DNA from: Polytrichum commune
Taxonomy: Eukaryota; Streptophyta; Polytrichopsida; Polytrichales; Polytrichaceae
Direction of reading: 5' to 3'
Assembly: GCA_950295325.1 (NCBI GenBank)
Contig: OX485806.1
Coordinates: 35,900,001 to 35,964,000 of the forward strand
Length of the DNA: 64,000 nt
The notes beneath the pieces were generated by a model. The model was not told where the DNA came from. It searched no databases and was given only the letters and a program-made list of their open reading frames with translations. The translations under genes were made by a program, and so were the position numbers. Positions 33,686 to 57,848 of the stretch are shown piece after piece. Each line of letters opens with the position of its first letter. The stretch's first letter is position 1.

Positions 33686-34489
33686 GTCCAAATCTCAAAT
33701 TCCTCCAACTCTCTCCTCCCAATCTCAAAGCTCTCACCTCACCTCACCTCACCATAGCCACTCTTCCTCCGTCACCTTCTTCGACTAGTACTCCCAACAA
33801 GGGGGAACTTCACACATGCTAACCTTTCCCTTATCATGGCCATCATCATGGAACCACATGTATGACCCAAGAAACCTGGACCCAAAAACAAAAATAAATC
33901 TACAAGGAGAGCAAGAAGCAAAAAAGGAAGAAATGTTCTACTACCTCATAATGGAATTAATAAAACCAAAAAAAAAAAAAAAAAAAAATCCCAGGCTACG
34001 GTTGAGTCAAGAAACAAATCTGCTTTTGTCGTTGTCCTAACCCAAGGTCATCAGAGCATGTGTGTATCACAGGAACCTGAACGCAACCAGATTGTTCTAC
34101 TTACAAGAAAAATCCGCAAGGAGAGAGGAAAAGGAAAGAAAGAAAGAAAGAAATCTACTACCTCATATTGGAACCCCTCAAAAAATGAATCCAGGCTACG
34201 GTTGAGTCGAGAACCAAATCTGCTCTCCTGATAGCCTAACCCACAACTGAACTTAAACTTCCTTCCAGCTTCTACTGTCCTGCTCACAGGGATGAATCTC
34301 CTTAAAACTGGAGATTCTATCCCTGGATCTCAATGAAAACAGTAGAAAATTATGTCAAGAATCAAAGGAACTAAGTCGGATTCATCAACATCCTCAGAGG
34401 ATATGCTGGAAGCTCAAAAAGACCACTTGAACTCAAAAAGTCTGCCAATCTGGTCTCCAAAGATTGAAAGCTATGAAGAAGCCGTACCT

Positions 34490-34650
34490 GACACGAGATT
34501 TAGAAGAAAGATTTTAAGTAAAGTGATCACCGAATGGTTGAAAATGTGATGAGCTAATTCAGACACAAAATTGAGAGGGAATGCGACGAGAGAGTGTGGT
34601 GGATGCGACAGACTATTCCCTTTGACTGGCCCACACGAGATCCCCGCCGT
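34490..34650 (-). promoter_or_regulatory. Possible leader exon and promoter side of the lipase gene
   Basis: On the minus strand a CT-rich stretch is followed by TCGTGTCAG/GTACGG, a good splice donor at about 34493. It lies 0.8 kb upstream of the start codon at 33685 and could be an untranslated first exon. No clear TATA box was found, so the assignment is tentative. Confidence 0.3.
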
Positions 34651-34952
34651 CGGTGGTAACATCGGACGGCGGGGAGATGACGGCTAGTAATCCCTTCCCA
34701 GGTTTAAGGGCGCTTTTCGAAGGAACTGGGTTCTATGACACGTGGTCTTCTGTGCGGTCGCCAAGTGGTACAGGTGGATCTCGGGTAGGGTCATTTGCCA
34801 CGGTGTCAATTCTTAGCTGGATTCGGAGGGCTGATGCCATTGCAGTTACAGTTTGTGAAGTCCTTTTCTCACACACAAATTGTGGCCCTTGGGTTCTCAA
34901 GGTGGGTTTAATTGCGCTTGGGTCCAAGACAAAAGAAAACCCAGTTCCTTTA

Positions 34953-35699
34953 GGGCATGTTTACATCAAAGGCATTAATTAGGCCATGGCTCTTTAATGA
35001 CCATGATGCCCCGCTTTTTGGATGAGAGAATAGAAAAGTCCGTGGACCCTTTGGAGATCACTACCCTTTAGTGTAAACCCAAATGGAATCGTAAAAAAAA
35101 GACCTCTCAATATTTTGATTAAACATGAAAATGCATCATGAAGGAGAGAAGAAAGAAAGTGTTCATCGCTTTCTTTATGTACCGGTGGTTCACATATGTT
35201 AATCCAACGAGTTATGAGTATTCAGGCTTTATTTATAATGTATGAATTAGAAAAATGAGCTTTGTTTGCTATATAGAAGAAAATTTACTTCATAATAGTA
35301 GGAAAAAAGAAAAAAAATCTACTGCTACTACTACTATTGCACAATAGTTACACATAAAGGAGCATTCTACACTAGCTCCAACAATCACATTATGAATTAA
35401 ACATGAATAGTATTTTTAACAAGTTCTCATGGGTTGTTCCCTTGGGGCCGCCGCACATTCCACTCGGCCTAGTACATTCAAAAGTTGTCCCGAAAAATTC
35501 CCTATAATCCTAGCCAAGATAATTTATACTTTGTCATGTGGGATTCCATGTAGATATTTCATCCACTGAAATGGTTATGGGTTGTAGTCCAAAGTCACCC
35601 TCATGTAAACCCAAAGCAAGGACTCATGGCACTCTCAACCAATGAGAATTCAAGGATTCTCAAGAGCCATGGCCTAATGATGTTTGTGTAAACATGTTT
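34953..35699. mobile_element. PIF/Harbinger-like MITE, 747 bp, TTA target duplication
   Basis: The left end GGGCATGTTTACA and the complement of the right end AAACATGTTTACA begin an inverted repeat of about 45 bases that includes TTAGGCCATGGCTCTT. TTA lies outside both ends (34950-34952 and 35700-35702). No coding frame is present. Confidence 0.6.
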
Positions 35700-35705
35700 T
35701 TATTG

Positions 35706-36250
35706 GTTGAGAGCAAACTTTTGGACCCGAGGAGGTTAAACTAGGGGTGCATTAAGTTAGGGTGGGTTTACATTGATGTTAGACCTGTATATAGGTGAAT
35801 GCATGGGTGTCAATAATCAACATCAATGTTGGTATCAATAATGGTATCAAAGAATATATCATGGGTATTAAAATTGTAATTCCAATAAAGTATTGGCATT
35901 TGGTGCCTATGTCAATGTAAAAGAATCTATGTTTGCATGAGTCATTATTTGGGTCAATACTATTCTAAACCATATTGACATTAGGATAGTTTTTCTTAGA
36001 AATGAAAAGTCTTGCATGGCATATAGACCTAAATGGTATTAACAACACAAATATGGTCAAATACACATACCCTAATTGCATTAAAAAAATGTGAAGCCCT
36101 CATTATAGATACTTGAATGGTTTCCAAGAAAGACAATACTAGTTCATCGTTGGTGGACACTTGGTCCAGGAACATAGAAACTTCAAAATTGAGCAATTCT
36201 ATTGGTCAAGAGCAAACAAATTGGACCCTAGGAGGGTACACTAGGGTTGG
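35706..36250. repeat. Direct repeat pair, about 45 bp, 500 bp apart
   Basis: TATTGGTTGAGAGCAAAC with the following GGACCC and CTAGGG words at 35700-35750 recurs at about 36201-36250. The interval is AT-rich and shows no gene. It may be an element flanked by duplicated sequence. Confidence 0.4.
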
Positions 36251-36990
36251 GTCCATGGTATGGAAAATCTAAGTGGCGCTAATTTGGCATCACATTCCCA
36301 CCAAATAGTCCTCCTAGTATAAGAAACCAATCTTCAAGCTTGGACCTAAAACTAGTGAATTTGAGGATGGGTTTGCATTAGGGTCCGGGTCCAAGATACT
36401 CAAGAACCGGGGCCCAAGACACCCCTTAACCTCCAAGTGTCTAAGAGGCCCAATCAGGGCCTTTTTATGGGGAAAAATATATTTGAGCCACAAATTTTCA
36501 TTTTTAGTCAATTATGTTAGACAAGACCTTATCTAAAATTAACTCCTTCTAGTGCAATTATCAAATTGGATGACTACTTTAATGTTATTGAACAAAATTT
36601 GAGCTAAGTTTACAAAGCTTGGGTGCCCTTGTAAGCAAATACATACTTATTATCAATGAACTATCATTGATGTTATCATGAGTATATATGTTTTTATCTT
36701 GGACATAAGATGTTGTGCATATTTGTGTTGGGGGGGGGGGGGCACGAGAATCTTCACTTTGATAATTAACAAGGTATTTGTATGAGCACCAGAAATTATG
36801 AGGCAAATGACTATGAACACGATTTGGATTTGTTGATCATCTTGCATTAATTGCACCTAGTAGTGACAAGCTACTAGGGTGAAGTGGCCTAGTGCACCAA
36901 CCACAACCCGACTTATTGTACTATTAAAAATCACCTAAAATTTCCTCATGGTTTCTTGAGACATGCCTTGGGGTCACTAGCCAAAATCGT

Positions 36991-37552
36991 AGGAACAACG
37001 TGCGATAAAAAATAAGGTCTAATATATTCATTGTAGATAAATTTTACAAAAAGGTACATATAATATAGGGGGTTTTAAAATAATGAAACATGTTTACATG
37101 TAAAATACCATCACATAAAATGGCCTCTTTTATCTAATCAGTACATGTAAAATAGCATGTAAACAACTAGTAGGGGTAGTGGGTCTAGATGTAATTTTAT
37201 GTTGAAAAAGCTTGGATGGATGACTTTGTAGGCTAGTTGGCTTGAACGTTATTGAATCAACGTATCTAATGTGGAGTTAATGTTCTCTACCGACATGCCA
37301 TGAGGGAAAATTTCAGCGCGTTGTTCGAATTGCAATCTTCTTTCCAATTTTCTTTGGCAGTATAAGTAAAATAAAGTATTTTTAAATGATTCCCCAATTT
37401 TTTTTATAATTACTGATAAGGTGTAATAAAATACAAGCATTTACCTTTATTTTGAAAAATACCATACCTTATAATCTTTTTTGCAAGGTAAATAGCCCCC
37501 CGATTAATAAGTCTTGAGCACACGTTTATGCATTAATATAAGAGGGAGTGAC
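36991..37552 (+). repeat. Dispersed repeat, copy 2 (copy 1 at 21436-22026)
   Basis: Same family and orientation as 21436-22026, ending at GAGGGAGTGACC and a poly-C run. The two copies differ by scattered substitutions and small deletions. Confidence 0.7.
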
Positions 37553-37822
37553 CCCCCCCCCCCTGAGAGACATATACAATGTAACTTAACCCTTAAATGT
37601 CCAAGAGGCCCATATTGGACCTCTCCATGCACACAAATGTGTAAATAATGACCATGTATTAAATTAATTTATTCGTCAAATCATTTGGATGCCTTAATGT
37701 TATTAAAAAACTTTAGTCCAAATACGCAACCTAGGCGCCTTTGGATGCAAATACACACATTATGTTATGATCACCAATATCAAATATATAGAGTATATTT
37801 TGTTTTCTCCTTGACATAAGAC

Positions 37823-38817
37823 CTCGGGGAGTTCACTAGACATGTATATATGTATACACATGCGTGACAAGGGTATTTATTCAAGGGGTATTTAATTGTC
37901 CATCCTTAATTTTCTGTACCGTATTATTATATAATTTGCTAGTTTCTTGTTTTTTAAATGATCCTATAATTACTTTTAAATTTGATGAAGCTCTAATTTT
38001 AAGCTAGGTATGTTCATTATAATTATTTGATTTTGCTCCAAAGGTTTTAAGAGCATTCAAAGTACTAAGTCACCAGACTCCAACGCACAACAAGGTTTTA
38101 CATTAAGAGTGTTCATAAACAGTTTCAAACAACAAAATCAGCCCATGTTCCTCAATCAAGTTACACGCACAATTAAACACAGCGATACTAAGTGTAAAAA
38201 AAACAATTAAAACACCAACAACAAAGCAAGCAAAAATAGGGTCCATGCAATAATGTAGAAGGGTATAGAGTTAATACTACAACATCCTGCTTGAAGCAGA
38301 CAGACACAAGACCAACCAAAACTCCTCTAATTTATCTTGAGAAATTGTTTCTAGCATTTAAAAACACTAGCAAAACTGTTCATAGCAAATGAAAGATGTC
38401 ATGTTCATCTTGCAAAACAATTCCTAGCTTTTAAGAACACTAGTATATAATCAACAAATAATGCATGCCTTTAATCCTAAACCCAGGAATTCGTCATCCG
38501 CCCTCATCAACCTTTCATCCCATTTTTACAACTGAATCGACGTAGTTTTTCATCCAAAATCTTCCTGCCTCTAAACACAAAGGACACCCTATTTCAAAAA
38601 AACCTAGGATCCTTAAATCCTACGGTATATTTTTACAAATATTTTAAAAATATGCGTTATTTGTATCAAGCCTATATTATTTATAATACAAATTTTATCA
38701 TACATAATCACCTATATTACTTCTAAGAAAATTCTAAGTTTTTCCTTTTGTGAATATAAATTACCCTATATTTTCCCGCACGTTGTTTTCTAATATTATC
38801 GCAGTGAACTCCCCGAG
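37823..38817. mobile_element. Non-autonomous DNA transposon, 995 bp, 8-bp target duplication
   Basis: CATAAGAC flanks both sides (37815-37822 and 38818-38825), a perfect eight-base duplication. The ends are CTCGGGGAGTTCACT and its exact complement, 15 of 15 bases. Eight-base duplications are usual for hAT elements, although this end does not begin with the common CA. The inside is AT-rich with no open frame of note. Confidence 0.88.
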
Positions 38818-39431
38818 CATAAGACAATGTATAAAATAAGGCTTAAAACCCACAGGTATATAATTTTGAATTTGAACTTGGTGATGACAGTATAAATTGT
38901 GTGCATATGGTTGTATATTAATATCCTACGTCCTTTAAGAGTTAATTGAAGCTAGAAATGGAATGTAATTCATAGGGTTGGGGGCACAGCATGAGAGAAA
39001 CAATGTAAGGAGGGAAAGACGATAAATTTGTCTCTCTTCAAAGACATATGGTATAGTAGAGGCGCCTATTCGTGATCAAGACTCCATCGGCAATCTATAG
39101 GGTACCGGAGTTTTGATTAGGTTGGGATTGAATTCCGATAAGGATGGGACTAGATTTTGATTAGGCTGGAACCAATAGTGTCATGACACATGTCATGGTT
39201 TTACAAGTTAAAGTGAGAAGGAAGGAGTAATTAAAACAAGTAGTTATGGCAAACTCTACACATTGGTAATATGTTCAGGCCAACTTTTGCCTTCAAAAAT
39301 TCACAAAAATTTCAATTTAAGGAATAAAATTACCGAAAAAATCGCAAGCCTTCTGATTTCTATCTTCCTACATAGGAAAAACTTCATTGCCTTATACTTC
39401 TCTAGATATGGCGCATAATCTCCTAAATGAT

Positions 39432-40594
39432 TGGTTACGGGCCCGGGTACGCAACTCCCATATTATACGCAGGGGGCATCGTATTAAAAACGGCTTAGAG
39501 GACGGCTTTTGTAAAGATTATATCAAATTATATCAAATTGAAATGATCAAAAAGTTGGGTGAAGACCAAATTAAATAAATGAGATGAAAAAAAGTTGGGT
39601 TGCATATTTATTAAAAAAAAAACTCCAACATATATAAACAATTGAAACACCTAGTTTTTTAACCTTGTAGAGCGTCTAAGAGGGGTATTCAATGTAGATG
39701 TCGGATTAGTATTCACAAATGTTAGAGGGTCCTTTTGAGGTCTCCCTCTTTTGGAAGGAGTTGTGGCAATTACAGGTGTAACATATTCCTTCTCCCTATC
39801 TCTACCTCCACTACATGAGCCTCTACGCTTCATCTCACAATCCATGTGTTTGTTTAAGCCAAGGATGACCCTCCCAAATGAGCACAAGCACACTCCAAAG
39901 CGACGACACAAAGGCTCCAAAACCGAACACAAAAGCTTCAAAGCGAATATATAGAAGCCTCAAACCCTAAGCCCTAACCCTAAACCGGGAACCCATGATA
40001 TTTTGAAATACCCCATGATACCCTTGAGTAGTTGGGGCACCATATGATGTATATGGTCTTAAAAATACATACCTCAACTGTATCCTAACACAAATCATTA
40101 GTTTTCTATCCCAACAGTTAGACCAGTAAGTTGCCTATACATAATTTTAAAAAATCCACACGAATATTTGCCTCCAATTAGAATTATAAGCCACAAATAG
40201 TTGCCTCCCATTAAAATTATAAGTCATTAAAAATGTCAAAATTTTGTTTAAAAGTCCAAAAAGTTGGGTAGTTTGACCTATGGTACATGTATTAAAAAAA
40301 TCATATAATTAGGTATTTAATGCAATTATATGCTTCAAAATATATTCATTTCATGTATGTAATTACATTTTTGGATTCCTTGTTAGAAGGGCTACAAGGG
40401 TTTCCTACATTAAAACAAATTGTATCACACAATATTGGACTAAAACGCATTATAAGTGATTATAATCAGGACCATATAGTACGGGAGTTGCGTACCCGGG
40501 GTTACGGGCACCTCTACTCTAAATTGGAATGATATAGAAAAGATTAGCATGACCCATGCACAAGAATGACACGCACAAATTGAGAAATGGTCCA
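39432..40594 (+). pseudogene. U6 snRNA pseudogene split by a transposon
   Basis: From 40510 to 40594 the sequence follows plant U6 snRNA. AAATTGGAATGATATAGAAA, AGATTAGCATGACCC, GACACGCACAAATTGAGAAA and TGGTCC precede a T run (40595-40605) that would end Pol III transcription. The 5' stem-loop is cut by the element at 39443-40499; the target duplication GGTTACGGGC falls in it. Compared with the conserved U6 body as I remember it, nearly all changes are C-to-T or G-to-A, as expected of a methylated, inactive copy. It has no spliceosomal role now. Confidence 0.85.
39443..40499. mobile_element. Mutator-like element, 1057 bp, 10-bp target duplication, inside a U6 relic
   Basis: GGTTACGGGC lies at 39433-39442 and again at 40500-40509, a perfect ten-base duplication. 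The ends are CCGGGTACGCAACTCCC and its exact complement (17 bases), with further partial pairing to about 25. A 9-11 base duplication fits Mutator-like elements. A minus-strand frame (39941-39651) ends in KRGRPQKDP, an AT-hook-like basic motif, then RRSTRLKN. It may be a scrap of a transposon or captured gene. Confidence 0.85.
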
Positions 40595-40867
40595 TTTTTT
40601 TTTTTGCCTTTCTTGCAGCTTTTTCTTGAACCAGCTTTCATGTAGAGTTTGAGAGGTATGCAGGCATAGCATCACTTGTCTGGAGCCCTTTATCCTCATC
40701 ATTAAGTTTATTCTTCAAACTCCTCTATCTAATTCTCTCCCTGCACTTTTGGTTTCTATGAGTCCTTTCATAGAGAACTACATCTTTGAGTGATATAGGG
40801 TTTTGGCCAATGGATGAACTCATCCATCATCCATGACAATATTTGTTCACTCGCTTCATAAGAAGTG

Positions 40868-41194
40868 TCATTCGAAAAATAACCATAGTGCGATTGTGTT
40901 CCCCAGAGTTCCAAGGGCATTGCAAGCTTGATCCGAGAAACTGTTAGATAATTGTTGCGAATAATTGAGGATGTTCAAATTCCATTGATTGCAGGAACCT
41001 CCAGAAACTGTTTGGCAATTTGGGTTGCAATGTTCACATTTTGAAAAACCTTTGAGCATTGGTATAGATGATAAAGTACGTTTGTGATGGGCTTGCGTTT
41101 GTCTTTGTGTTGGGAGGACATTGACATCTTTGATGTTGCAAATGGACCTGTATTTGAGAAATCCAAGAAATCCTTGAAATAGTGGCAAAAACAT
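40868..41194 (-). pseudogene. Possible leucine-rich-repeat gene remnant
   Basis: On the minus strand, pieces in different frames resemble plant leucine-rich repeats: FLDFSNTGP, IRNNYLT and LELWGT. A stop codon and frame changes separate them. The match is short and I give it low weight. It may be unrelated. Confidence 0.25.
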
Positions 41195-41390
41195 CGGACG
41201 TCACAAATTTGTTCATGTTCATTTGCTATGAATCTAGAGTGCAGGACAGTGTTCCTGTCCAGTTTTCACGTGTAGAATCGCCATGCAGTATAAATTTTTC
41301 TGGCAGTCAGGATCAAGTGCATCTATCTACCAGCATTGTACACTTTCGATTGCATCTTGGGCTTAGGTTTGAGAAAGAATGAAGTTCCTG
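41195..41390 (+). repeat. Diverged direct repeat (second copy at 44070-44240)
   Basis: TTTGTTCATGTTCA, TCTGGCAGTC, ATCAAGTG, CTACCAGCAT and GATTGCATCT keep the same order in both copies, at roughly two-thirds identity. They enclose 2.7 kb without a gene. The second copy ends about 120 bases before the first visible AWPM-19 exon. It may be a decayed LTR pair or a local duplication of AWPM-19 intron sequence. Confidence 0.5.
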
Positions 41391-41399
41391 GGTTTGTTA

Positions 41400-44070
41400 G
41401 CTGATATCAGCCCTTGTGACAGATTTTCAACCAAAGCCTTTATGGTTGAGAGGACAACATGTTTGTTGTGAATTGTGGTACCATTTTTTGGTCTGAATGC
41501 TTAAGTTTTAGTTTTGAGATGTAAATGAATGTCAAATTTTACTCAAGACTAGTGAAATAGTGAAGTATTAGACACTTAGTCACTCCGAAATGGAAACAGG
41601 CTAGGAAAGAGGAATTTCCTTTGCTGCCCAGAGTTTAGAAGGATATGAGGGGGCATGGAATTCACATGTGACAATTAGAAGTAGCACTTGGAATCCTAGC
41701 TGCAGACAGTCACCACCTTTTGAGGATAGAAGGATAAGAAGAAGGAAGGAGAAGACAAGAGGGGCATTGTAATTTTGATCTTCCTCTCGTGAAGAGAGTG
41801 AATTTCTCAACTCCCAGGGTGTGAAGCCCTTAATTTTATGTGTACAGTCTCTTTTTATATCAATACAAAGTTCCATTATTAAATCCTTCTTTAAGTTGTG
41901 AATGTGAAATTGAAAGTCTTGTGATTGGATCGGTGTGTGGATGTCCTAGAGTTGTTACCACTGTGGAAGTGGGAAGTGGGAGTGTTGTTGTTAATGTGGA
42001 GTTGCGATTCAGGAGTGTGAAACTCTTGAATTGAATCACATGTGTTCTATGCGTGGATTGTGAACAGTCTTATATGGAGTTATATGGACAGTGTCTTAAG
42101 GTTCTAAGAGAAGCTACAGTTGATATGGAGACAGTGAATGTCCCTGATTCGGAGAAAGTCAAGAGGAAATATATTTTATCCTACTCTTGTGAAGGGAGTA
42201 AAGTTTAGTTGTGCAACTTCAAACTCTTGTAAAGGAACCAGTGACAGAGAAGAGAGTGAGAAACTCTCAGTCGCATGATAAGTCTCTAAGAAATTATACT
42301 CTCGCACCAATCCATGAAATCCCCATTCCTTGGGTGTGTCTTACTGCTTTAAATATGTGAGCAGAGTGGAATTGAAGGGAACAGACAACGGATCTCAAAT
42401 CCGATATTATTATATTTGTGATTATACCTCACCAATGGAATGTGGAACTCCACTGTGAGTAATTACATAATTTACTCTTGAGAATTCTATAAGACGGGTC
42501 TTCATGATCCCCTCTAGAAGAGAGAAAGATTCACTTACATATTGGATGGGTCTCATAGCAACTTTATGAGAAAACGAGAGGTGCAGGATGCCAACATTTG
42601 AGTGAGATTGAATGTGTGTGACAAGGGTGTAACTGTGAGAAGCAGTTACCTTGTCTCACCCTTAACATTATTATTCACAGATAAAATTTATGAGTGGAAT
42701 GTGAAATTCCACCGTGACTAAGTACCTAATCCAATATTGGTGATTCCGTGATCAGAACCTGAGTGATCCTCGGAGTCAAATTGGTTGAATACTTGTTATC
42801 TTCGAATTCGTGATGTGAGGACCAAAATTATCGGCCCAGAATTTAACACACAGTCGTAGAAGCGCTATGTTTATTCCCTGTGTCACTTCAAGAGGAATGA
42901 TACAGTCTTGAGGGAAAGACTGATAGTTCCCGACTTAAGTGTGGAAGAAAGAGTCTTCGACTCACATCCCAAAAAGAGGGGTAACAGTTTGTTGTTGAAG
43001 GGGCATAATTACTACCTGGTTACCCCCATGATAATCGATTGCTGCGGGTGAGAAATCCGGGAGCTTCGGAAAGAGGTTCGAGAATAAGCCTAGAACAGGA
43101 TTAAAGTTTCCACTTGTAGATAGTTTGTGGGAACCAGGAACCTTAGCAATATTTTCCTCGTGAATGTATTGTGTGTGCGTGTGTCGAGTTTCACGATTGA
43201 GGTGTGCGACCGAACAAATGTTTAGCAACTTGGCTAGGACAGTTATTCACTTCCTTTTCCGGAATCAAGATCGTAGCATCTGCACTATCTTTGGTGGAGT
43301 GAAGTTGAATCCAGTGTAGAAGTTTTTTCGCGAGTAAGAAGAATCGAGAGAGTTGATTATTGCAGGTGCACTCGCTGTGATTAGAGTCTCCCACAGATGC
43401 TAAGAAGGAGAGAAGATGGTGTGCTTCATGGAGCAAGGTGAGTCGCAGAGAAGGAAGAAGTACCAAAGGAAGGAGCTGTGAAGAGAAGAGGGCGCGCTTT
43501 TACCCCATATCGGTTGGGAGTTCCAGAAAAGGCAGGTATATAGCCTATTCCTCCTTGGTGGCTAATGTGTCTAGACGCTTCTCACGACACAAGACTGTCT
43601 ACTGGTTACTGGTTACTAGACTATCTACTTGGCACTGGTGACTAGATTGTCTAATTGAGACTCTGGTTCTTGGCACTAGACTCGTGACACTGACTCAGGA
43701 CCATTAAGACGCTTAGGACTCGTTTGCTTAGACTCTGTCCCGGTTACTCGTTACTAGACTTTTGGTGAGTAAAACAAGATGATAATTTATTTTATGAATA
43801 CTTAGACTCTTTATAAGTTAAGTAACCCCTACCAGTGGTCACTAAGTATAAATGAGAAAGTGAAACCTAGGTTAATTGACTGTCAAAAGCATTTCATAAT
43901 CATTTCAACCTATCAATTAATCTTATTATGACACACTAAAGTTACACCTGACACTTATTTGGTCTTCCCTGGGGTTTTTTGAGAGTATGAACCCAAACCT
44001 AAAAACCTAACTACATGAATGAAACCAAAAATTACTCTTGAATCCGTTGCAAAAATATCAAAATAATAAT
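41400..44070. other. No gene seen between the direct repeats
   Basis: The first coding exon expected for the AWPM-19 gene was looked for here and not found. At 43560-43760 the words ACTAGACT and GTTACT recur irregularly. The open frames match no family. Confidence 0.45.
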
Positions 44071-44501
44071 TTGTTCATGTTCAGTTGGTATGAGCCAAAA
44101 GTGTAGTAGTGGTGTCCATCTATAGTTTTCAACGTGGGTAAAACCGCCATAATTCATTTCTCTGGCAGTCGAGATCAAGTGAGTCTACCAGCATGCACTC
44201 TGGATTGCATCTCCTGCTTAATTTTGACAAAGATGAGATTATGAAGTTTCTGTAGACTTATAAGAACTTGCTGGTTGATCAGGAGCAACACTTTACAATA
44301 CGTTTACAACTGATGAGTGGGAAGTGACTTGGATATAAATTTTATTTTATCCATCACAGGAACATTTCTGCCGTTGGCACTCATAGCTTGCATGGTGGGC
44401 TTGCTGGAAACTCACCATATCCGAGTGTGGAGAGGAGACAGCCTTGCAGCTGCAGCTGCCACTTCTCTCATCGCCTGGCTCCTCACTCTCCTCACTCTCA
44501 A

Positions 44502-45375
44502 GTATTTTTAACATCAAATTCAGCGATCCACAATTCTAGTAAATAATAGAACGATCTTAGGGAACACTTGTGACTTGCTGCTTGACTTTGGTGTTGTTTT
44601 TGATAAACTGATTCCTACCAAATCCTTAATGTGAATTAGCTGTATCACAGACCCTCAACAATAAGAAATGCAAGTTTGTAGCGCTCACCATCTCAGGTCT
44701 CGCTGCCGCGTCGTATCTTCATTGGACACGAGCACGGTGATTGTAAACTTGTAGCAAGTGGTGCTCGCAACATGGTGAACACTGCGTTTGATATCTAAAC
44801 ATGTTGTTTTACTATGGGTTTTAGTAGGGCTCCTTGTGTACTTACCTTGTCAGTCATTCTTGCGACTCAATAGGTTTCTCACAAGGACGCCTTCCCATAA
44901 CCCGTGGTCTTGTAGCAGGACTCCTCGCATACAATATCTAGTACATAACGACATAATTCTTTGAATGGTTCAATTGTAGTGGTCATTGCAAATTGGGTAC
45001 GAGGAGGTATATTATGACCCCACCCATAATTGATGACCCCACCATGACATGATGTACCACTATGTCCAACGGTCATGGACGCATGAGTTGCACAATAAGC
45101 AACAACCAATACCTACCTCGTCACTACTGCGGCTCGGTAGGTTCAATGCTTGCTACATTATGTAGCAACACTATGTCAAATGATGTTGGACACATTGGTT
45201 GCATAGTAAACACTGGCTAGTGCCTACCTTGTCTCTACCACAACTCGGTAGGTTGGGTGCTTGCTACAGCCTATGACATGGCTCCTCGCATCCATTACCT
45301 AGTTCATAAGGTTCCTCGTGTCCAAATATTAGCATCCTCATAAACACATCTTCTAATTTGTGTTCATGTGTACAG
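44502..45375 (+). repeat. AWPM-19 intron with degenerate internal repeats
   Basis: Segments with CTACCTCGTC or CTACCTTGTC, CTCGGTAGGTT, GCTTGCTAC and CTCCTCGCAT recur at about 44830-44950, 45110-45170 and 45225-45300. No gene is present. The acceptor at its right end, GTGTACAG/A, starts the exon that the CACTA element splits. Confidence 0.5.
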
Positions 45376-46089
45376 ACTTGTAGCGAAGCAGATTCACACC
45401 AGTGGTCACTACTAGAAAGTTCAAGGGTTAATGTCTCAAATAATGTCTCAAACAATGTCTCCGCATTGTGCCTCCATAAATGTCTTGGGAGGAGTCAAAA
45501 AGCGGTTCATTCCATGCTTTGGTGGTTTACTAGTGGGGACAAAAAGCAAATTGAGGACGATGTGGAAGGGCCCACCCAATCTTCCACCCTATCTCCCTCC
45601 TTTTAATCTTTAGAAGCACCTCCAATTTAATTTCACTTTTTTCTACCTAGACCTTTCCCTACCTTTTTGCAATTTACTCATTTGTCCATTGTGGCACATT
45701 TGATAAGTCATGGGCCTTTAACTTCATTTACCAAACAACTCACCGAGCATATCAAAGCAACCAATCGGCTTGTGGATGCCTACAACCGGCTTCAAACTCA
45801 TCTCCCTTTGTTAGCGGTTGTGGATGATTATTGCATATCGAAATCATCCATCCATCCCCATGTTAACCCTACACATTGAACACACACCCATCTTGTTTTA
45901 CTCCTTCACATCCAATTAAATAACGCCCATGTTAATGACATGTAAGGATTCATCTACAAAGTAAATGGGATTGTTTTGCCTATTTTTAGTCTTGAAGAAA
46001 ATAGACCGGTAAACATGATTTGGATTCAAGAAGGTAAACAAGCTTGGATTCGATATTCATATATGTAGAAGCGGATTAAAACTTAGGGG

Positions 46090-46400
46090 TGAATGGATAT
46101 TCGTCTACACTAAATACGTGTATTAGTGTTGGAAACACTAATAGTCGACGGAAACGCTAAATGTGAATTGTCTTCATAGTGTTAGAACACTATGAAACAA
46201 CTCTAACACTATTTGTACCAATAGGTAACTTTGAATATTTACAAAAGCGCATTTAGTGTTAGATGACATTTTTTGTAGATCTTCAAATGAAGAATTGGTA
46301 CAAATAGTGTTAGAGTTGACATTTAGTGTTCTAACATTATGAGTACTTTCAAGTGACATTTAGTGTTTTGGGTAACTATTGGCTCTAACACTAATCTTCA
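46090..46400. repeat. Inverted-repeat debris rich in TTAGTGTTAG words
   Basis: GTGTTAGAACACTAT, ACTCTAACACTATTTGTACC and its complement near 46292-46315, and several TTTAGTGTT words form overlapping inverted repeats. It is probably a small decayed element inside the CACTA transposon. Confidence 0.45.
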
Positions 46401-46491
46401 TCTAACACTAATCTACCTATTTAGTTTAGTTACGATTTTAAGAAGTAAATATTAGGAACCCAAGGTCTGCGTACATATATATTGCGTGTGT

Positions 46492-46707
46492 CAATGATCG
46501 GGGAGAACCGGCAGTTAGATACAAATGAACCGCTGGAGTTTGAGAAATAACCGGTACATGGCCAAGATTGCAAGAAAATTACCAATCATTTTATAGAATG
46601 AACCCCAATTTAATAAAAGAAAACCGGAGGATGTCGACATGTAACCGGTTGGATTTGCAAACACTGGGATCTCGACCGATTATGTCCAAAAATCTCCCCG
46701 ATCACTG
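46492..46707. mobile_element. hAT-type MITE, copy B, 216 bp, nested in the CACTA element
   Basis: GCGTGTGT lies at 46484-46491 and 46708-46715, a perfect eight-base duplication. The ends are CAATGATCGGGGAGA and the complement of CAGTGATCGGGGAGA. It is about the same length as copy A at 24829-25049 and shares its CCGGTT words. Being inside the transposon, it jumped in after or was carried with it. Confidence 0.9.
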
Positions 46708-47131
46708 GCGTGTGTAGGGTAATAATGGAAAATCGGATGCAAATGAAACCAGTAGAAAACGAGACACCTAGGTTTTTATCTGGTCTCTCAATAAAGTGGA
46801 TGGGTTTGAAATTCTGCCGTGACTAGAAATAGGCAAAATGTTTTTGGAAAGTGTGTTGAACCTTCCTCTCCTCAAATTCAAAGGTCGATTTGAATTTGAT
46901 GAAAGGAAGGTTCTGCACACTTTCAAATAACATTCTGTTACCCTACATGTTACATTTCGAGTCACTTGACAGTCAGACAGAAGTATAGACATTTACCGTA
47001 GGTTACTAGTTGCTTAGGCATAAAATAATACATAACAAATATGACTAAAAATTCTGGAAATTCTTGACTTTGTTTGCCTAAAATAAATAAAATTAAAATT
47101 GGGTTGCCCAATATGAGATATAGATGACCTA

Positions 47132-50100
47132 TTAGTTGCTTATGTCAGAATCCTCTCGTTCAATGGAATCACCATCGCTCCTCTCTGAATTGTCGCTACT
47201 GGCCGCCTCCAATTCCCTCATAGTGTCTGCCAAATTCTCCTCCAAAAATGCCTCGTTCACAATAATTGCTACCACCACTTCATCTGGAACCGGTTCTGTA
47301 GGTGAATTCCTCATAGCATGAATTAGGGGTTCGGAATTTGAACCTCCCGCCAACTCCCTTATTTGGCTTTCCACTAATGGTTCATTTAGAACCAAACCAG
47401 GAATCGTTGTTGCCTCCATGTAGCCTCGTCCTTCCACATCAACAACATAGCTCCAATCCTCATCCTCACTATCTTGGTGGTAAAACACTTGTGTGATTGT
47501 ATCTGCGCTAACCCAAGGCTCCCGATTACCTAAATTTAACCGAGTTTTGATTTTCATGAACCCACATTCATCCTCTTTTTGGGTAACACGGTTATGTGAT
47601 CCAACAATAGTATTGTACCACTTCCCCCTAAACAAAACTTCTTTCCGTTGAGATGACAATTGAACCTCCACTATTTCTTCCAAAACTCCATAGTATTGGA
47701 GTTTAGCTCGTTGGCTACGGGGATCATTTTTCCTAGATACACAATCTATGTAGTTAGGAGTAGCAATGCCTGAATCTGTTGTAACGGGCGCATTTTCATC
47801 TGCCGAATCTATTCTGTAATGTCGTCCATTGATTGTGCAAGATTTATAGTAGTATGCGGCTTGGCTAGGGCCGTTCACTATTTCTTGTACTTCAGAAGAC
47901 AATGGTTCATTTCCAACTAACCCCAAAAATACTTGTTCTTGAACCCATTCCAAAAATGATTTCAACGGTTTCACCTTTTCCCTTGCCCATCTTGCTCTCT
48001 CCTTTCGGTATTTAATCTCCCATACACCCATGCAGGGCTCATTAAACAAAAGATACTCATGAATCTGCATTTCCATAATGTATCCATATCAAACAATCAT
48101 AATCTGAAGTCATATTGCGATTGGGTACAAATGCATAAGCTATGAAGTATGTTACATATAAATATACTAAAACATTGGCAACTACATTAACAAAGTTTTT
48201 GGAAGTGTTTGTTTACCTGTTTGTGAGTGTCGTTATCCAACTTTTTCTTTGTGCGTGTTTTGGGCAAAATCACTTTTCTCCAAAATAAAACAATGACTTT
48301 TGGGCCAAGTATCCTTCACTCATGCTACCCTCAGGATGGTTTTTTTGCCGGACCATTGATTTTAAAGTTTTCATATACCTCTCGAGGAAATACAACCATC
48401 TGCTATGCACTGGACCTCCTAGCTCCACCTCTTCAGGAAGATGTACCAACAAGTGAGGCATAATATCGAAAAAATGCGGTGGCATACATGTCTCAAACAA
48501 AAACATGATCTCTGCAATCTCTACCTTCCAAAATGGAATCTCCTCGGTAACTATACTTTTTCCACAAATCCATCTAAAAAATGTAGCAAGCCTGTAGATG
48601 CCTTCTCTGATTTCCCTAGACAACGTACCCCGAATGGCAATAGGTAAAATGAATTGTAGAAGGACATGATAGTCGTGAGACTTCATGCTAGATAACTTGT
48701 AATCCGAAGTCACTCTGTTAGCAAGATTTGAAACAAAACATGTGGGTGTTTTAATCGAGGATATTCGATTAAAAACTTTTTCCATGTCCTCACGGCTCCA
48801 TACCCAATACGCTCTATGGAATGACCCATCATTTCGGGGATGGTAATTCACTAACTTATTTTCAGCTTGTAATTCTTTTCTTACTGCCAATCGATCAGCC
48901 CTTGTCCCCTTTGCGTTGGAAAAAATCTTCATCATTGTTTCCACAACATTTTTTTCTATGTGCATGCAATCATGCAAGTGGCGTATGAGAAGATCCTGCA
49001 CATTTACCCACAAACTTAAGACTCAATATAATTGAAAATATCAAAAGGTTGAAGGGAATATAAATAGTTGATAAATATATTTCTATGTACAATTTTCATA
49101 GCTTTTGGGTGCTTGATCTAGATAAATACCTTCCAATAAGGTAGAGTGAACAAGGCCGACAATCTTTTCATCCCTCTTCTATCTTTTGGCATGTTTGTTT
49201 CTCGAATTTGTCTCCAACGCCGTATCCAATAACGTCCATCAGGTCTCACAGGAATTGGATTGTTATTTAAATGACCTCCGAACTTCCTCTTAAAGTATGG
49301 TTTCCTCCATTTGTGTGCAAGTGGCAAGAATTGTCTAAATGATGGATAAATAGTTTTTTTCAAATGCGGACTCACTATAAAGGTTAGATTGTCCGCACAC
49401 ACATTGCATGCTCTTTTACCCCGAGTAACCAAACCAGACACGACACCCAAACCTGCACTTCACCAACTATGACTTAGATGATTTAAAATTTAAAATATAA
49501 AAGCAAATACAAAGCCTGAAATTAGGAACACTTAATTCAATCACAGTGCACATCAGATTTATTTGTTATTCGCAGAAGCTTGTGTTTGTTTGGCGCAACA
49601 TAAATTTACACTATCAAGCCTTGCTAGATTATGAAGTCTGTTAATCTTGCCAACTAAAGGCATGATGAAATGATCCCCTGTTTTGTGAATCATGAAGATT
49701 TTCAGAGCAAAATACAGAATTGGAATGGAGACCTATGTATGGGAAGAACCAACAGTTAGTTGCATATGAACCGGTTGATGTTCAGGACTTCGGGAGAATT
49801 ACCAGGATCTTTAGAGAAATCTATGGTATATATCTCAAGGTTAAAATAGTAAAACAGGATTATTAGAACAAGTGACTGGTTTAGGATTTAGATTCACTAG
49901 GATCTCAATCGACTATGCTCAAAAACTGGGTGGGGACTGATTGAGACTGGACTTTTTCTTAGGACAAATACGAACGTCCCAGATTCATACCGAATTCATC
50001 CATCTATCCATGGAATAGAGACCTATGTACTGATTGAAACTTCCGGTGCACTGATTGAGACTGGACGTTTTCTTAGGACAAATACGAACGTCCCAGACTT

Positions 50101-52647
50101 GCACCGAATTCATCCATCCATCCAGGGAATGGAGACCTATCTATTGGAAGAACCAGCGGTTAGTTGCATATGAACCGGTTGATGTTCACGACTTCGGGAG
50201 AATTACCAAGAACTTTAGAGAAATTTATGGTATATATCTCAAACTAATATAGTAAAACAGGAATATTTGAACATGTAACTGGTTTAGGTCAGAATCACTA
50301 GGATCTCAATCGACTATGCTCAAAAACTTCCTGGGCACTGATTGAGACTGGACTTTTTCCTGGGACAAATACGAACGTCCCATATTCATATCGAATTTAT
50401 CCATCTATCTCCCTGTAAATTCATTGTGTTTTACTCCTTCACATCCAATTAACTAACGCCCATGTTCATTGGATGTAATGATTCATCCACGAAGTAGATG
50501 AGATTTTGCCTATTTTTAGTACTCTTGAAAATAGACCGCAATCGAATCCTTCCATATTATTGATAGATCAAATTAATACCTAGTTGTCTCTGGTCCATTT
50601 GCATCCGACGACTATCATTACCCTACACACTAAATATATCTATATACAAACTTTTTCATAATATTAGTTGAGGTATACAGGTTTTAAGCCACCATTTCCT
50701 AATTGTGCATATTGGAATAGTCAAAGAAAAGTAAATCAATAAATAACATACCTGGAAAATCCGTCATAGTCCACAACAAAATTGCCTTCAAATTGAATAG
50801 CTCTTTGCGGTGTGCGTCATAAGTGTTGGGAGCTCCATTCCACAATAACTTGAGTTCATCAATTAAGGGGCCCATGAAAACGTCAATATTTTTCACTTGT
50901 TTTGGACCTGCGCATTCAATTCCCAAATTTAACTCACAATTACACTTAATTAAAAAGAAGTCTTAATGTAAGGCAACGCCATCAATAAGTGTGTGAGTTA
51001 ATGTGTGTTCGTGCGCGTGCGCAATACCTGGTACTATTGTTGACAATAAAATGAAAGAAGTCCTTATAGCAAGAAATGGTGGCAGGTTGTACAACACAAG
51101 GGTGATTGGCCATGTTGAATGGTTAGTTCGTTGTTGCCCGAAAGGATTCACCCCATCTGTTGACAAACCAAGCCTTACATTTCTTGGGGACGAACCAAAC
51201 TCTGGCCATGTTGTGTCAACATGCCTCCAAGCACGTCCATCTTGAGGTCCGTTCATTATCCCTGTTTTGCTTTTATTTGCAGCGTGCCACACCATAAGTT
51301 TGGAAAGTGTGGGACTACGGAATATGGCTTGAAGGCGTGGTATCAAAGGGAAATAAATCATTTTCTGCAACAACAAATATAATTATTTAGCAGTTGTGGG
51401 TTTATCATGACATTTGCACATCACATTTAATAAGTAAATTGAGAACTGTAATATTATTGGTAAATGAAGAAATGAATTACTATAAACAAATGAAGAAATG
51501 AAATTACATACGATTGTTGGTCTATTGGGGTCGGTGACTTACTTTCCCGGGCACTTGAACTCCTTTTGTGTCTTGTCTATATCTCCTTTCTTTGCATATT
51601 GGGCAATGATCCCGCATCTTGTATTTACCGTAGTAAAGAATACAATCTCTAGGGCAACAATGAATGTGAGTAAAGCCCAAACCCACTGCCCTCATGAATT
51701 TCCTTAATTCAGCGTGACTTTTAGGCAATATGGGGTTAAGATGCTTAGGTAAGAAAAAATTGGATATCATTGACAGCATTGATGAGATGGCAACATTGGA
51801 TATATTGAAGTTCACTTGAAATTGTAGAATCAAGACAAGAGCTTTCAACATGCAAGTCGGGGAACCATCATAAATTGGCACTTGGGATTGCTCATGTAGA
51901 AAACGGTCACCTTCAGTAGGGGGGGTGGCTATAGGGTCGGCACCAATATTGTTGCCACCGGTTGTTGTGGTGTGGTCAGGAATATTGGTTTCTATAAAAT
52001 CTTCCAAGATTTGAGGAAGAGGATCATCATCGTCATATTGCCCATTAAGGACATCGTCTATTGAGTGACCTTCCTCGTCTGAGAACATCGAATTCATAAA
52101 AACTCCGGCTGATTCATTTGGGCGAGCACCCGTAAGTTCTTCAAGATATCCCGGAAGACCATCCGGGAATGCATCAGGATTCTACACAGAAAATGAACAC
52201 TTCATGTAGTAAATTTTAAGTCTAACAAATACATTTTTCAATCTAAAAATGTAAATTTTATAATGTAAAGAATTTAATGACATCATTCAATAATTGCATT
52301 AAACCGGGTTTGAAATTGCATACCAATTGGGCTGGAGCCATCCCATGGTTGGAGAGATGATCTTCTAACTCTTGCAAAGTCAAATATGATGGCATACCAA
52401 CAGTAGATGCACACAACCTGCATGGACACAAATAGGTCCGATCTCTTGATGGGGGAGAAGGCATGGAATCCACAAGTTGGGGGTCATTACTTGCAGATGT
52501 TCCACCCACATCATGCCCAATGTGCACTGGAGCACGACGCTTGCGACGGTGTTGTCTAGAGGAGCCAACTTCATCACCTGGAACCCCCACATAATATGGG
52601 TCCTCATCTTGTTGCTCCAAGTGCAAACTGAGTAATTTCCGAGACAT
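47132..52647 (-). CDS. TNP2-type CACTA transposase
   Basis: It cuts and moves CACTA elements. Reading right to left, the exons are about 52647-52325, 52181-51543, 51364-51028, 50907-50752, 49452-49140, 48995-48270 and 48076-47132. Family stretches: CPCRLC zinc-like start, HIHCCPRDCILYYGKY, RDHCPIC, GRAWRHVD, LGLSTDGVNPFG, KKTIYPSFRQFLP, then a DUF4218 region (HDYHVLLQFILPIAIRGTL, IMPHLLVHLPEEVELGGPVH, GSMSEGYLAQ) and a DUF4216 region (VLFRGKWYN, DPRSQRAKLQYYGVLEEIVE). The last exon ends in an acidic tail. The join between the two last exons is not solved: a TGA follows YFGEK at 48270, so either a donor precedes it or the gene is truncated there. The rest is open. The symbol tnp2 is used for the maize/snapdragon relatives. 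Confidence 0.85.
49731..50400. repeat. Duplicated, decayed hAT-MITE relatives with a 75-bp repeat
   Basis: Two copies of a segment related to the hAT-type MITE (about 49731-49945 and 50127-50345) share AGAACCA, GTTGCATATGAACCGGTTGA, CTTCGGGAGAATTACCA and TAGGATCTCAATCGACTATG. A 75-base unit containing GACAAATACGAACGTCCCA follows at 49940, 50058 and 50340. It lies in an intron of the transposase gene, between 49453 and 50751. Confidence 0.7.
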
Positions 52648-53260
52648 CCCAGCAATTTGTTATCTACATACAAAACAATAATAACAACAATACACACACC
52701 CATTTTATAAATTGATACCCTAAAACCTCAATTTTATATATTGGCTTATTGGTTGGCATACTGTAATACCATAGCTGCTTTATGTATAAATAATTCCAAA
52801 AAACCCATAAAAAATAGAGATTATGAGCTACTCAAAGGAACAAATTACAAATTATTGGAAAAGAAATGAATCGACGGAAAAGTTGGACTTTTCTCAATTG
52901 GACCTTACTAGTTGGGCTAGAGAAAGGGTTTAGGGTTTAGGTCGCCTTACTGATCAGCGAGACGGGTGCTTGGCAGTGGGGAAGAAGCTCACACGTGGAG
53001 CCTGCTGATTGCAAGGTGGGAGAAGAAGCTGTTGGGCCGGTTGTGTCACACCTCTTCGGGTAGCAAGGTGTGAGTATAGGAACAGTACCGTTGCGATTCT
53101 TTGGTCTTCCTTTGCTTGAGCGGAGCAACCCTACACCAGGTGAGATCCGGTTTTCAAGGGAAGAGTACAAGATTTGAGATTTCTTGTAGATAGAGTATGA
53201 TAATGCTTCGAGGAACTCACAGGAAGGTGACTAAAGTCCTTGCGATTCTTGCAGCTTTCC

Positions 53261-54046
53261 CAACTGTCTCTCGAATGTGAATCCTGAACACCAAACACAG
53301 AGAATCTTATAGAAGCAACTCCACCCAGTAAGCTTCCCTCCACATCATGATGTTTATGTCTTTTGAAACTAAGCTTTCCTATGCTTCCAGGCCACAATTG
53401 CATGTTTTGTAATGTGAAACAGTTGAGTAGCTTCCTTCATAGAGTGGTGAAGATGTTGCTGGAGGATAGGTTAACAATCACATGTGTTTTCATGTGGCTC
53501 ATTTGGGATAGATTTTAAAACAACTAGGTCAAGAAGTCATGGTAGATGACGGTAGAAGTCAGGGTCAGGCTTGGACCCTAAACCAGATGCTACATAGCAA
53601 AATGAAATGATGAATTTCACACTGTTTCAATGCTCCAATAAGTTGTATGCATCAATTTCATAGCATTGCCCAAACCTGGATTGCTCTTCTGGAGGTGGTC
53701 AAAATTTTGGTACCTGGTGTCTTGTAATTGTAATTGTGGATCATGCAGAGGTTGCTGGCATGTCCTTCCAACTGTCTCTTGAATGTGAATCCTGAACACC
53801 AAACACAGAGAATCTTATAGAAGCAACTCCACCCAGTAAGCTTCCCACCTCATCATGATGTTTATGTCTTTTGAAACTAAGCTTTCCTATGCTTCCAGGC
53901 CACAATTGCATGTTTTGTCATGTGAATCAGTTGAGTAGCTTCCTTCATGGAGTGGTGAAGATGTTGTTGGAGGATAGGTTAACAATCGCATGTGTTTTCA
54001 TGTGGCTCATTTGGGACAGATTTTAAAACAACCAGGTTAAGAAGTC
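53261..54046. repeat. 278-bp direct repeat pair, 508 bp apart
   Basis: 53261-53538 and 53769-54046 are almost identical, sharing AATGTGAATCCTGAACACCA, GAGAATCTTATAGAAGCAAC, TTATGTCTTTTGAAACTAAG and GTTAACAATC. They lie upstream of the transposase start, between the element's two genes. The copies do not encode a recognisable protein. They may be promoter or captured sequence. Confidence 0.85.
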
Positions 54047-54959
54047 TAAGGTTATGACATTTACTGACTACTAGCAATATTTAGTGTCATATGACATGTA
54101 ATGTCGCTGGGGTGAAGGGAAGATATTGATATAGGAGAATGTTGTATGTTGACTATTGAACCCAAAATACTTCAATTATAACGAAGGTTAGGCATGTGTG
54201 TCATGCTTATTGTGCCAACAATTTCTTCAGTGCTTGCCAGGTACATGACTTCTAGCAGGTGTAAGGAAAGATCGCCACGTGCAAAAATCAATGTTGTGCC
54301 GATATATAGGCAAATCAATACACAATCTCAATAGTGGAATTTGGAAGAACTGACTCAGAATTAGAAATCGATACTTGGTGGTAACATAAGATGTAACCTA
54401 TTCTATTACCCGAGTCAATACCACATTTATATTAGGATACTTGCACATGACTACAAAATCTACTTGGATGGTATCAAAAATCAATCACAAGACATTTAAA
54501 TTTCCTACTGGTACAAAAAACCCGTAAACCCATAAACCTCTATGAATTCGTGCACAAACTCTGTCATCCCAACTTGAAGTTTATCCAACTTTTTTCTGCA
54601 AGGAATGACAAATACTGCTAGGTTAACATTTTGTGTTGGTGACAGAGGGGGGTCATAAAGGTTCTGAAGGAGGTTCATTTACTGATCGGGAGAGACGGAT
54701 GTCAGGGTGATGGGTAGAAGCACACACATGTTTGGTGCTGGAGCTTGTTAATTGAAGGTTGGAGATCCAAAAACGGCCGGCCCGGTTGCGTCCCACCTTT
54801 TCGGGGGTTATGTTGTGACTACAGGTACAATACTGTTGCATGTTCAAAGAAAATCAATTCAATCTCTTGTAAGCTCTTAGGAATCCAACTAGGGTGATCA
54901 ATTCTGATTGTACAGTTCATGCATGTATGTAATTCACCCTTCACAGCATAGTACTGGGA

Positions 54960-55016
54960 TCCCAACAAAATCAACCGGTTCATCTGTAACTAACTAGCAG
55001 TTCTCCTCAATCATAG
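54960..55016. mobile_element. Fragment of the hAT-type MITE
   Basis: AATCAACCGGTTCATCTGTA and AGTTCTCCTCAATCATAG match the right end of copy A (about 25000-25049). Only this end is present. It sits about 70 bases before the TNPA-like gene's start codon, in its promoter or leader. Confidence 0.65.
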
Positions 55017-55085
55017 GTAAGAGGATACCATCTGTTGACAAATTCCAGAATCCTACTGCAACCAAGTCGATTTCAACACATTATT

Positions 55086-56798
55086 ATGATGTCCAATGAC
55101 GACGAGAGGGTACTAGTGCAAGAGGTAAGTGTAGGAAATCATGCCGTTATTGATAAGGCAAACCCTAGCACAGATGAGGCCGTAGAAATAATTGCCATGC
55201 GTGCAGCAGAAAGACGCTACCGGCCCGCATATAGTGGCCCAATACTAACAAATGGTGAAGGGGATGAGGAAAGGAAGACCTGGGCAGCAATGCGCAAGTG
55301 GATGTATGATGTAGGTATTAGGACATTTCCGTGGCATCTGACGTGGAAGAAGCAACCAGAGAAATTAAAAGTGGAATTTTGGAGGCAATTGCGAAAGGAA
55401 TTTCCACATCATTGGTCGGAGAGCAATGTTGATAATTATGTGAGCATTTTTGAAAAATTCTTGAATTATTTTTGTGGATGTAGTTGTGAATTAATGCAAT
55501 ATTTCATATTTCCAACAGGTAGAAAGTTGCAAAACTTACATGCAATTGGGCTGCAGATGGGAAGTATTCTCCGATCAGCAAAGTACCGAGCTAGAAAAGT
55601 TTTAAGATCGAGAGAGGGGAGGAAAAAATTGTTGTACGGGGAGAGGCGTTTTGCTCGAGACGAATTAGAGCGACAAGAGAAGGAACCCAAACATGTGAAG
55701 GCATTCGAGAAAGCAAGGACTGCTGCATTGGCAAGGAAGAGACATCAGAAGTTTGGGAGAGGAGGACTTGCTGCATTTCAAAGGAGATTCGTAAGTTAAT
55801 CTTGAACTTGACTTCCCTTGGATCAAGTCTTATGTAATTTTCCTCTATGAGTTTTCTTAGAGTTGAACTAAAGTTTAAAAGTCAGTTTACTTGTAGATAG
55901 GATGTAGGCATGTGTTGTGTGCATGGATCTCGCAGGTGGTTACATGTGATTGGCTTTGAAGATGCTATGAATGTGGATAAGGAGGGCGGGTGCTTCAGAA
56001 ACAACATCTGAGGATCAGATGGATGGTAGCAACAAGGATTCTGATTACTGGCAGCTTGGGCTTCCACGAGAACGCATTCTTTTTGTTGACTCCAGGGATT
56101 CGGAAGAATTCAATATCCTCCTTGTAGCCCTAGATGGGGCTAAGGTTGTGGCCATGGATGCAGAGTGGAAGCCTGTGCGCAAGGCTGGCAGTGTGCCTAG
56201 GGTTTCCATCCTCCAGCTCTCCTGCCGCATGGATAATATGTCCATGTCATGGGCCAGCATTGACTCATTTCGGGCACAAGAAAGGTTTGTTTTATATGAC
56301 TTTTCTTACCCATTTATAATCTGTAAGACTAAAATTGCAACTATATTGCTCCTCAAAATATAGCATGAAGTATATTAGCTAGCATACAAAGATTGAAGTT
56401 GTAATAATATTTGGAATAGTCATGTTGCAGGAAACTATGGAAATCATCCAGCCGCCAATGAGCCCCGGGTGTTGCACGAATTTTTCCTCCACACTCCTTA
56501 TCTAAGTTTATGTGATGGCACTTCATGAGAGAGAGACTAAAATGGCAATTTTGGCGAATGTTTTTTGCAGTACAAAGATTTCAACACCGAGCCATCCGAA
56601 GAGGAGACCGAGTATGCTAAGTGGGAGGGTTACAAGGCACTAGTTTTGAAGATGCGCAGTCAGGTAGCAGCATTTGCCGACGTAGATGGTGCAGAGGTGG
56701 GAGACGATGTAGAGTCTGATGATGCAGAGGTGGGAGATGCAGAGGATGTGCCGGTGCCAATATTTCAGGAGATTTTAAACACCATTTGGAATAGTTGA
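55086..56798 (+). CDS. TNPA-like second gene of the CACTA element, 2 exons
   Basis: CACTA elements often carry a second protein that binds the subterminal repeats and pairs the ends. Exon one, 55086-55790, ends at TTC/GTAAGT; exon two, 56571-56798, begins after TTTTTTGCAG; both junctions are phase 0. It opens 17 codons into a longer frame, at the first ATG. Seen: a central block (WAAMRKWMYDVGIRTFPWHL, EFWRQLRKEFPHHWSESNVD), a basic helix region (RSAKYRARKVLRSREGRKKL), Arg/Lys/Glu-rich residues up to FQRRF, and an acidic tail with repeated EVGD and DAEVGD. This layout resembles plant Ptta/En/Spm accessory proteins. No enzyme motif is visible. The 780-base intron contains a captured exonuclease fragment. 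Confidence 0.7.
55971..56284 (+). pseudogene. Captured fragment of a Mut7/RNase D-type 3'-5' exonuclease
   Basis: The open frame from 55971 contains the start of a DEDD-type exonuclease domain: ILFVDSRDSEEFNILLVALD, then VVAMDAEWKPVRKAGSVPRV and SILQLSC. DAEW supplies the first Asp and Glu of metal-ion motif I. It ends at AAAG/GTTTG, a plausible splice donor at 56284; motifs II and III and the rest of the enzyme are absent. A TGA lies directly upstream of the first ATG. The fragment lies wholly inside the intron of the TNPA-like gene, so the CACTA element appears to have picked up one host exon with its flanks. It cannot work as a nuclease alone. Confidence 0.75.
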
Positions 56799-57295
56799 GT
56801 TTGCATAGCTCATAGAGTGTGACATGATGTCCTTGTCCTTGAATTAAATGCGATTCTTCAATGAAGTGTACACCATTTTTCATTTTGACAATACATTGTG
56901 CATTTGGGAATTAATTGATTTTGTGCAAAAGATTCATATCTTTGATTGGGTTTTGCTTAACCTGAACCGGTCCATTCGGATGTAACCACCGTGATTTCTG
57001 AGAAAAAGCACACAGCAAAGCTACATTAAATTAAACTAACCTAATTTAAACATTCAAAAAGTAGCCAATATTGGCCGCACACGTCTTTGCAAAATGGACG
57101 AATGTGGACACGACAAGTGGCGATCTTACGTCACTAGTAAAAAACCAATCTCAACAACTAGTGCGGCACCGTAAAACATGACGCAAAAAAAAACTTTTGT
57201 GGTAATTATAGAAAAGTTAACCGCGAAATCCGAGTGAATAGTAAATGTGCAATAGTTAATGTGTAAATATGTGGTTGAGCATGGTAATACACGAT

Positions 57296-57370
57296 AATGT
57301 CCCATTCTAGACATTCTTATAATGTCCCACTCTAGACATTCTTATAATGTCCCATTCTAGACATTCTTAT
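57296..57370. repeat. Subterminal 25-bp tandem repeat of the CACTA element
   Basis: AATGTCCCATTCTAGACATT followed by CTTAT is repeated three times without a gap, with one C/T change. Each unit pairs AATGTC with GACATT. Single AATGTCTCAA words follow up to the terminus. Such subterminal arrays are where the element's own DNA-binding protein is expected to act. Confidence 0.85.
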
Positions 57371-57848
57371 AATGAATGTCTCAAGAATGTCTCAAAGTAG
57401 ACATTAAACAATTCTCTTGTATAAACTCCGGCCAATGCAACTAATGTCTCAAATTGAGACATTAACCCTCAAAAAACTTAGTAGTGGGTGGATTCCGCCC
57501 CTAAAGGATGGTAATTATAAGCGCTCTATCTGATTTCAAAATTGCTGCTCCTTTCATTTCTGGTAGACTACATGATCATGATGTTGGTTAAGCTGCTTAC
57601 CGTTTAGTATTTATGTCTTGTAGGCCTTATATACGATTGATCTTAAGTTGATTCTGTTACTGATATGCTTATTTTGTGGATTGTTACAGAAAGTGTTGGA
57701 GGCTTTCATCATCATTCTGTCTCTATTTGAGATTCTCTACATGTTGTCGCTACACGTTGGCTTCATGTCGAGTGGCGATGCTGCCACCGTTGATCATGAT
57801 AACTATGGGCAACACACAGACAGGAAGATTCCTGTGGGCAGAGTGTAA

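Follow-up and report, generated by a model that had tools for sequence, protein, structure and literature searches.

A CACTA transposon within the third exon of a probable PM19 pseudogene in Polytrichum commune

Among described systems, those closest to the locus reported here are the plant CACTA (En/Spm-type) DNA transposons, such as Tgmt* in the soybean F3'H gene (PMC2613891). As far as the available part of that report describes it, Tgmt* resembles our element in its CACTA inverted termini and 3-bp target duplication, and also in its asymmetric subterminal repeats, its tnp2 transposase and its insertion within a gene. The host copy belongs to the PM19/AWPM-19 family of membrane proteins (PF05512), of which rice OsPM1 is, according to the available part of a review (PMC9919377), an importer of ABA.

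We analysed a stretch of 64,000 nucleotides (hereafter the window), corresponding to C4:35900001–35964000 of a 407.8-Mb assembly in 64 contigs. We are highly confident that the locus consists of a PM19 (AWPM-19) pseudogene, derived from tandem duplication, whose third exon contains a CACTA transposon; this confidence concerns the structure only, and the order of events is graded separately below. Most likely, the transposon inserted into a tandem duplicate that was already decaying.

Table 1. Features of the interrupted PM19 copy and of the CACTA element, in window coordinates
Feature	Position	Strand	Evidence or remarks
PM19 exon 2 remnant	44360–44501	+	Pfam PF05512 2.7e-11 on 44362–44496; blastn 79–80% to L005–L007; exon starts; block alignment
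Intron 2, phase 2, GT...AG	44502–45375	+	Position as in intron-bearing paralogues
PM19 exon 3, left half	45376–45406	+	Ends in GGT 45404–45406
CACTA element, 12,080 bp	45407–57486	minus (transposase-type frames)	Termini, target-site duplication, Pfam, other copies
Left terminal inverted repeat	45407–45439	+	33 nt, 79% complementary to right, first 8 nt identical
Left subterminal 12-bp repeats, AATGTCTCAAA-type	45429–45461	+	Tandem repeats, motif count
DUF4216 frame of CACTA transposase region	47135–48088	-	Pfam 1e-9
DUF4218 frame of CACTA transposase region	48273–49022	-	Pfam 4.1e-27
Transposase_21 fragment, profile 133–199	49121–49459	-	Pfam 1.5e-8
Transposase_21 (tnp2, PF02992) fragment, profile 2–82	50966–51382	-	Pfam 6.2e-28
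Two open frames, 55017–55796 and 55971–56360	55017–56360	+	No Pfam match at E 0.01
Right subterminal repeats, 25-bp unit x 3.2	57294–57374	+	Tandem repeats, motif count
Right terminal inverted repeat	57454–57486	-	Pairs with left 33-nt terminus
PM19 exon 3, right half	57490–57510	+	In-frame TAA 57502–57504, then GT donor
PM19 exon 4 with stop codon	57690–57848	+	tblastn 2.5e-8, translation

The CACTA element and its other copies

The element begins with CACTACTA and finishes with TAGTAGTG, and a GGT/GGT target-site duplication (45404–45406 on the left, 57487–57489 on the right) flanks it; the length proposed in the initial annotation is exact to the base. Counted on either strand, AATGTC is found 15 times in the outermost 500 nt of the element, compared with a mean of 0.35 and a maximum of 4 in 2,000 single-base shuffles. 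A Pfam scan that took in 10 of the 16 element-overlapping stop-to-stop frames of at least 90 codons placed Transposase_21, DUF4218 and DUF4216 in separate minus-strand frames. The sequence hallmarks of a CACTA element were found, namely inverted termini starting with CACTA, a 3-bp duplication, a repeated subterminal motif and tnp2-type transposase matches accompanied by DUF4216 and DUF4218. The two plus-strand frames in the right part of the element represent a candidate second CACTA gene, on the strand opposite to the transposase. Integration would have occurred through a staggered cut made at GGT by the CACTA transposase.

End searches detected three further copies whose left and right ends could be matched up by position, at C3:38.27, C3:20.16 and C3:47.25 Mb. 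Matching 3-bp flanks were present in all four end-paired copies, window included (GGT, AGA, CCG and GGC). Compared over all 12,080 bases of the window copy, the sister at C3:38.27 Mb shows 91 substitutions (K2P 0.0076) along with a few single-base indels; it also has about 66 bp of additional sequence. So few substitutions argue for recent movement of the family, whose mobility we infer from this closely similar C3 copy. The divergence between the two copies sets no strict bound on the date of the insertion, since the window copy could itself be the source. The copy at C3:20.16 Mb is 98% identical to the window copy at its left end and 73% at its right end. In a genome search with DUF4218, in which 150 of 703 candidates were scored, at least seven matches (window included) were at least 87% identical, and the others listed reached at most 62%. 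Together with the close copies, this split points to a small subfamily with recent movement, embedded in a large CACTA population.

Two internal features of the element were also observed. A direct duplication occupies 53260–54046 (279 nt, 96% identical, spacing 508), and a MITE-like small inverted-repeat element is nested at 46105–46429. At least 35 further places in the genome resemble about 46105–46298 of the latter at 93–94% (40 of 415 candidates scored). Its first 196 bases are covered by the matches at C3:38.28, C3:20.16 and C3:47.25 Mb, and the match at C1:74.15 Mb ends where it starts; this pattern of matches spanning it or stopping at it suggests that the MITE-like element may have joined the CACTA family before its last spread.

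The interrupted PM19 copy and its paralogues

After removal of the element and one GGT, exon 3 aligned without gaps at the DNA level to the intron-bearing paralogues L010 and L014, with the two halves next to each other. The element termini, the GGT/GGT duplication and this gapless rejoined exon all agree with the earlier proposal that a CACTA transposon lies exactly inside an AWPM-19/PM19 exon. The proposal that the rejoined exons follow the order of the family was likewise borne out. Against the AWPM-19 profile (PF05512, cut-off 27), exon 2 alone scored 44.2 bits, whereas exons 2–4 rejoined, with X at the stop, scored 93 bits and corresponded to profile positions 53–142; exon 4 alone gave no Pfam match at 0.01. 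In the case of the claim that the exon halves rejoin in frame, the phase is indeed kept, but the frame is not open. The rejoined exon reads LVAKQIHTSGGFRP, then a stop, then RM, and the TAA responsible, which had been overlooked, lies outside the element.

This stop is the only one in the remaining exons, exons 2 and 4 being open. Exon 2 of the window copy has a 12-nt in-frame deletion near 44403/44404, a position at which 16 of 16 paralogues are gapless, and its homology to them begins at about 44352, with the first codons of the paralogues missing. Scraps of dispersed repeats were found in intron 2 by a genome search of 44498–45375.

Exon 1 was not found in window 1–45406 on either strand by tblastn or by profile search (best profile score 6.6 bits), and an additional tblastn of window 30000–44400 revealed nothing belonging to the window copy. 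In a leave-one-out control, the exon-1 profile recovered 10 of the 10 paralogues tried, drawn from 16, with 60.5–90.0 bits. A search of the whole genome returned 16 exon-1 matches, one for each PM19 locus with the exception of the window copy, for which no complete reading frame including exon 1 was found. The missing exon could sit upstream of the window, too diverged for detection. A dispersed repeat occupies window 42600–44015 and ends sharply at about 44015, its portion 42600–43716 being 95% identical to C4:36657601–36658721; a rearrangement at this point may have removed exon 1. Farther upstream, we noted a U6 spliceosomal RNA gene or copy (window 40492–40601; full-length Rfam match, 78 bits) and a patatin-like phospholipase fragment (window 29941–30393, minus strand), which at 25.2 bits falls just below the Pfam cut-off of 27.7.

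A genome search with PF05512 gave 22 rows that resolve into 17 loci, i.e. 16 PM19 loci besides the window copy. The latter is the first of six copies clustered at C4:35.944–36.008 Mb, the other five following downstream on that contig within some 64 kb. All nine three-exon PM19 loci tested, a check confined to three-exon loci, yield complete reading frames and GT/AG splice sites, although for one of them (L002) the exon 1 picked by the script is longer than that of its relatives. PM19 copies with complete frames are present elsewhere in the genome; the initial annotation had proposed a search for a second intact one. Whichever event came first, we do not expect the window copy to produce a PM19 protein today; the paralogues remain. 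An empty site had no match in the searchable part of the assembly when sought as a 36-nt pattern with up to 3 mismatches, and the right flank had no second full-length match in the genome.

PM19 loci with the intron (L010, L011, L013–L015, the window copy and probably L012 and L016) and loci lacking it (L001–L009) differ at the same phase-2 position. The intron-bearing window copy adjoins intron-less neighbours and is most similar to them in exon 2, which suggests precise loss (or gain) of the intron within the array. The evidence for this kinship is the intron, the length of exon 3 and identity, rather than the protein tree, in which the window copy was not placed with support and 10 of 13 inner branches were open.

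Order of events and alternative readings

It is likely, in our judgement, that decay of the host copy came first and the CACTA insertion later. Selection and relative rates were analysed over 77 codon columns, with the variable C-terminal tail left out. Between the window copy and its tandem neighbours L005–L007, dN was 0.106–0.109 and dS about 1.3 (near saturation), a ratio of about 0.08 that argues for constraint on the window-copy lineage for most of its history. At codon positions 1+2, Tajima relative-rate tests counted 13–15 private changes in the window copy versus 2–5 in the neighbour. The difference was significant (p<0.05) in 12 of 15 comparisons, which share data and are not independent, and not significant in the three with L010 as outgroup (p=0.096); third codon positions showed a significant difference in one of 15. 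Two of the changed codons adjoin the 12-nt deletion and depend on the alignment. The excess at positions 1+2 amounts to roughly ten changes per about 146 sites. This is far above the roughly 0.4% per copy expected had the element arrived at about the time of its split from the C3 copy, and it speaks for insertion into a copy whose constraint was already relaxed, bearing in mind that this split gives no strict date for the insertion. Alternatively, the extra amino-acid changes could mean functional divergence.

The initial annotation had read the locus as a gene disruption in a family tied to ABA and to seed or desiccation responses. With exon 1 not found, a stop outside the element, a 12-nt deletion and faster change at positions 1+2, it is unlikely that a working gene was broken. 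A related reading, in which the PM19 copy still worked until the insertion disabled it, and lost exon 1 and acquired the stop only afterwards, is doubtful but deserves some weight: purifying selection was strong in the past, and a single stop interrupts exons that are otherwise open. If the insertion were as young as the C3 split, however, it would leave room for only a small part of the excess at positions 1+2. Our preferred order, decay before insertion, would have the element arriving, probably recently, at a PM19 copy that was already losing function. Improbable, in our view, is a young insertion, still segregating in the species, that was itself what first inactivated a diverged PM19 copy with its own role; if it were true, occupied and empty alleles would allow the role of this copy to be tested.

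The exon halves at 45376–45406 and 57490–57510 correspond by homology to neighbouring segments of a single PM19 exon. Chance matches flanking an element in intergenic DNA are extremely improbable. With 21 nt the right half is short, and neither half alone reaches significance in tblastn (E 3.6 and 6.3), but the rejoined peptide, with X in place of the stop, scored 65 against L014, a value reached by 0 of 20,000 shuffles. Of the six paralogues tried, five gave 0 of 20,000 for the rejoined exon and L013 gave 5 of 20,000; taken singly against L014, the score of the left half was reached by 0 and that of the right half by 20 of 20,000 shuffles. Moreover, the splice sites of the window copy coincide with those of the paralogues. 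We attach equally negligible weight to an artefactual linkage of element and exon: it is known from assembled sequence rather than from reads, but both junctions fall at the exact element ends with matching GGT, the exon halves lead on to the exons expected next to them, in the right order, and the left junction pattern occurs only once in the genome.

Comparison with known systems

Insertion of a transposon into a decayed duplicate, here one from a stress-related family, is an ordinary event of a type already known, and our literature search found nothing joining a CACTA exon insertion with PM19. In two rice species, the available part of a comparison counts one gene disruption among 487 DNA-transposon polymorphisms (PMC4423477), a rarity that fits an exon insertion tolerated in an already dispensable copy. 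The window locus illustrates cleanly, and to the base, how a transposon can interrupt a plant gene copy. It is also a caution, as a perfect signature of exon insertion does not prove that a working gene was broken.

Compared with PM19 proteins such as OsPM1, the window copy matches PF05512 in exons 2–4, but exon 1 was not found and the copy carries an in-frame stop, a 12-nt deletion and a 12-kb insertion. Relative to Tgmt*, as portrayed in the available part of its description (PMC2613891), the window element is smaller (12.1 kb versus 20.5 kb) and, unlike Tgmt*, appears to have its candidate second gene on the opposite strand. The sites differ as well: Tgmt* lies in an intron of a single-copy gene, whereas the window element interrupts an exon, and the copy that contains it is a decayed duplicate.
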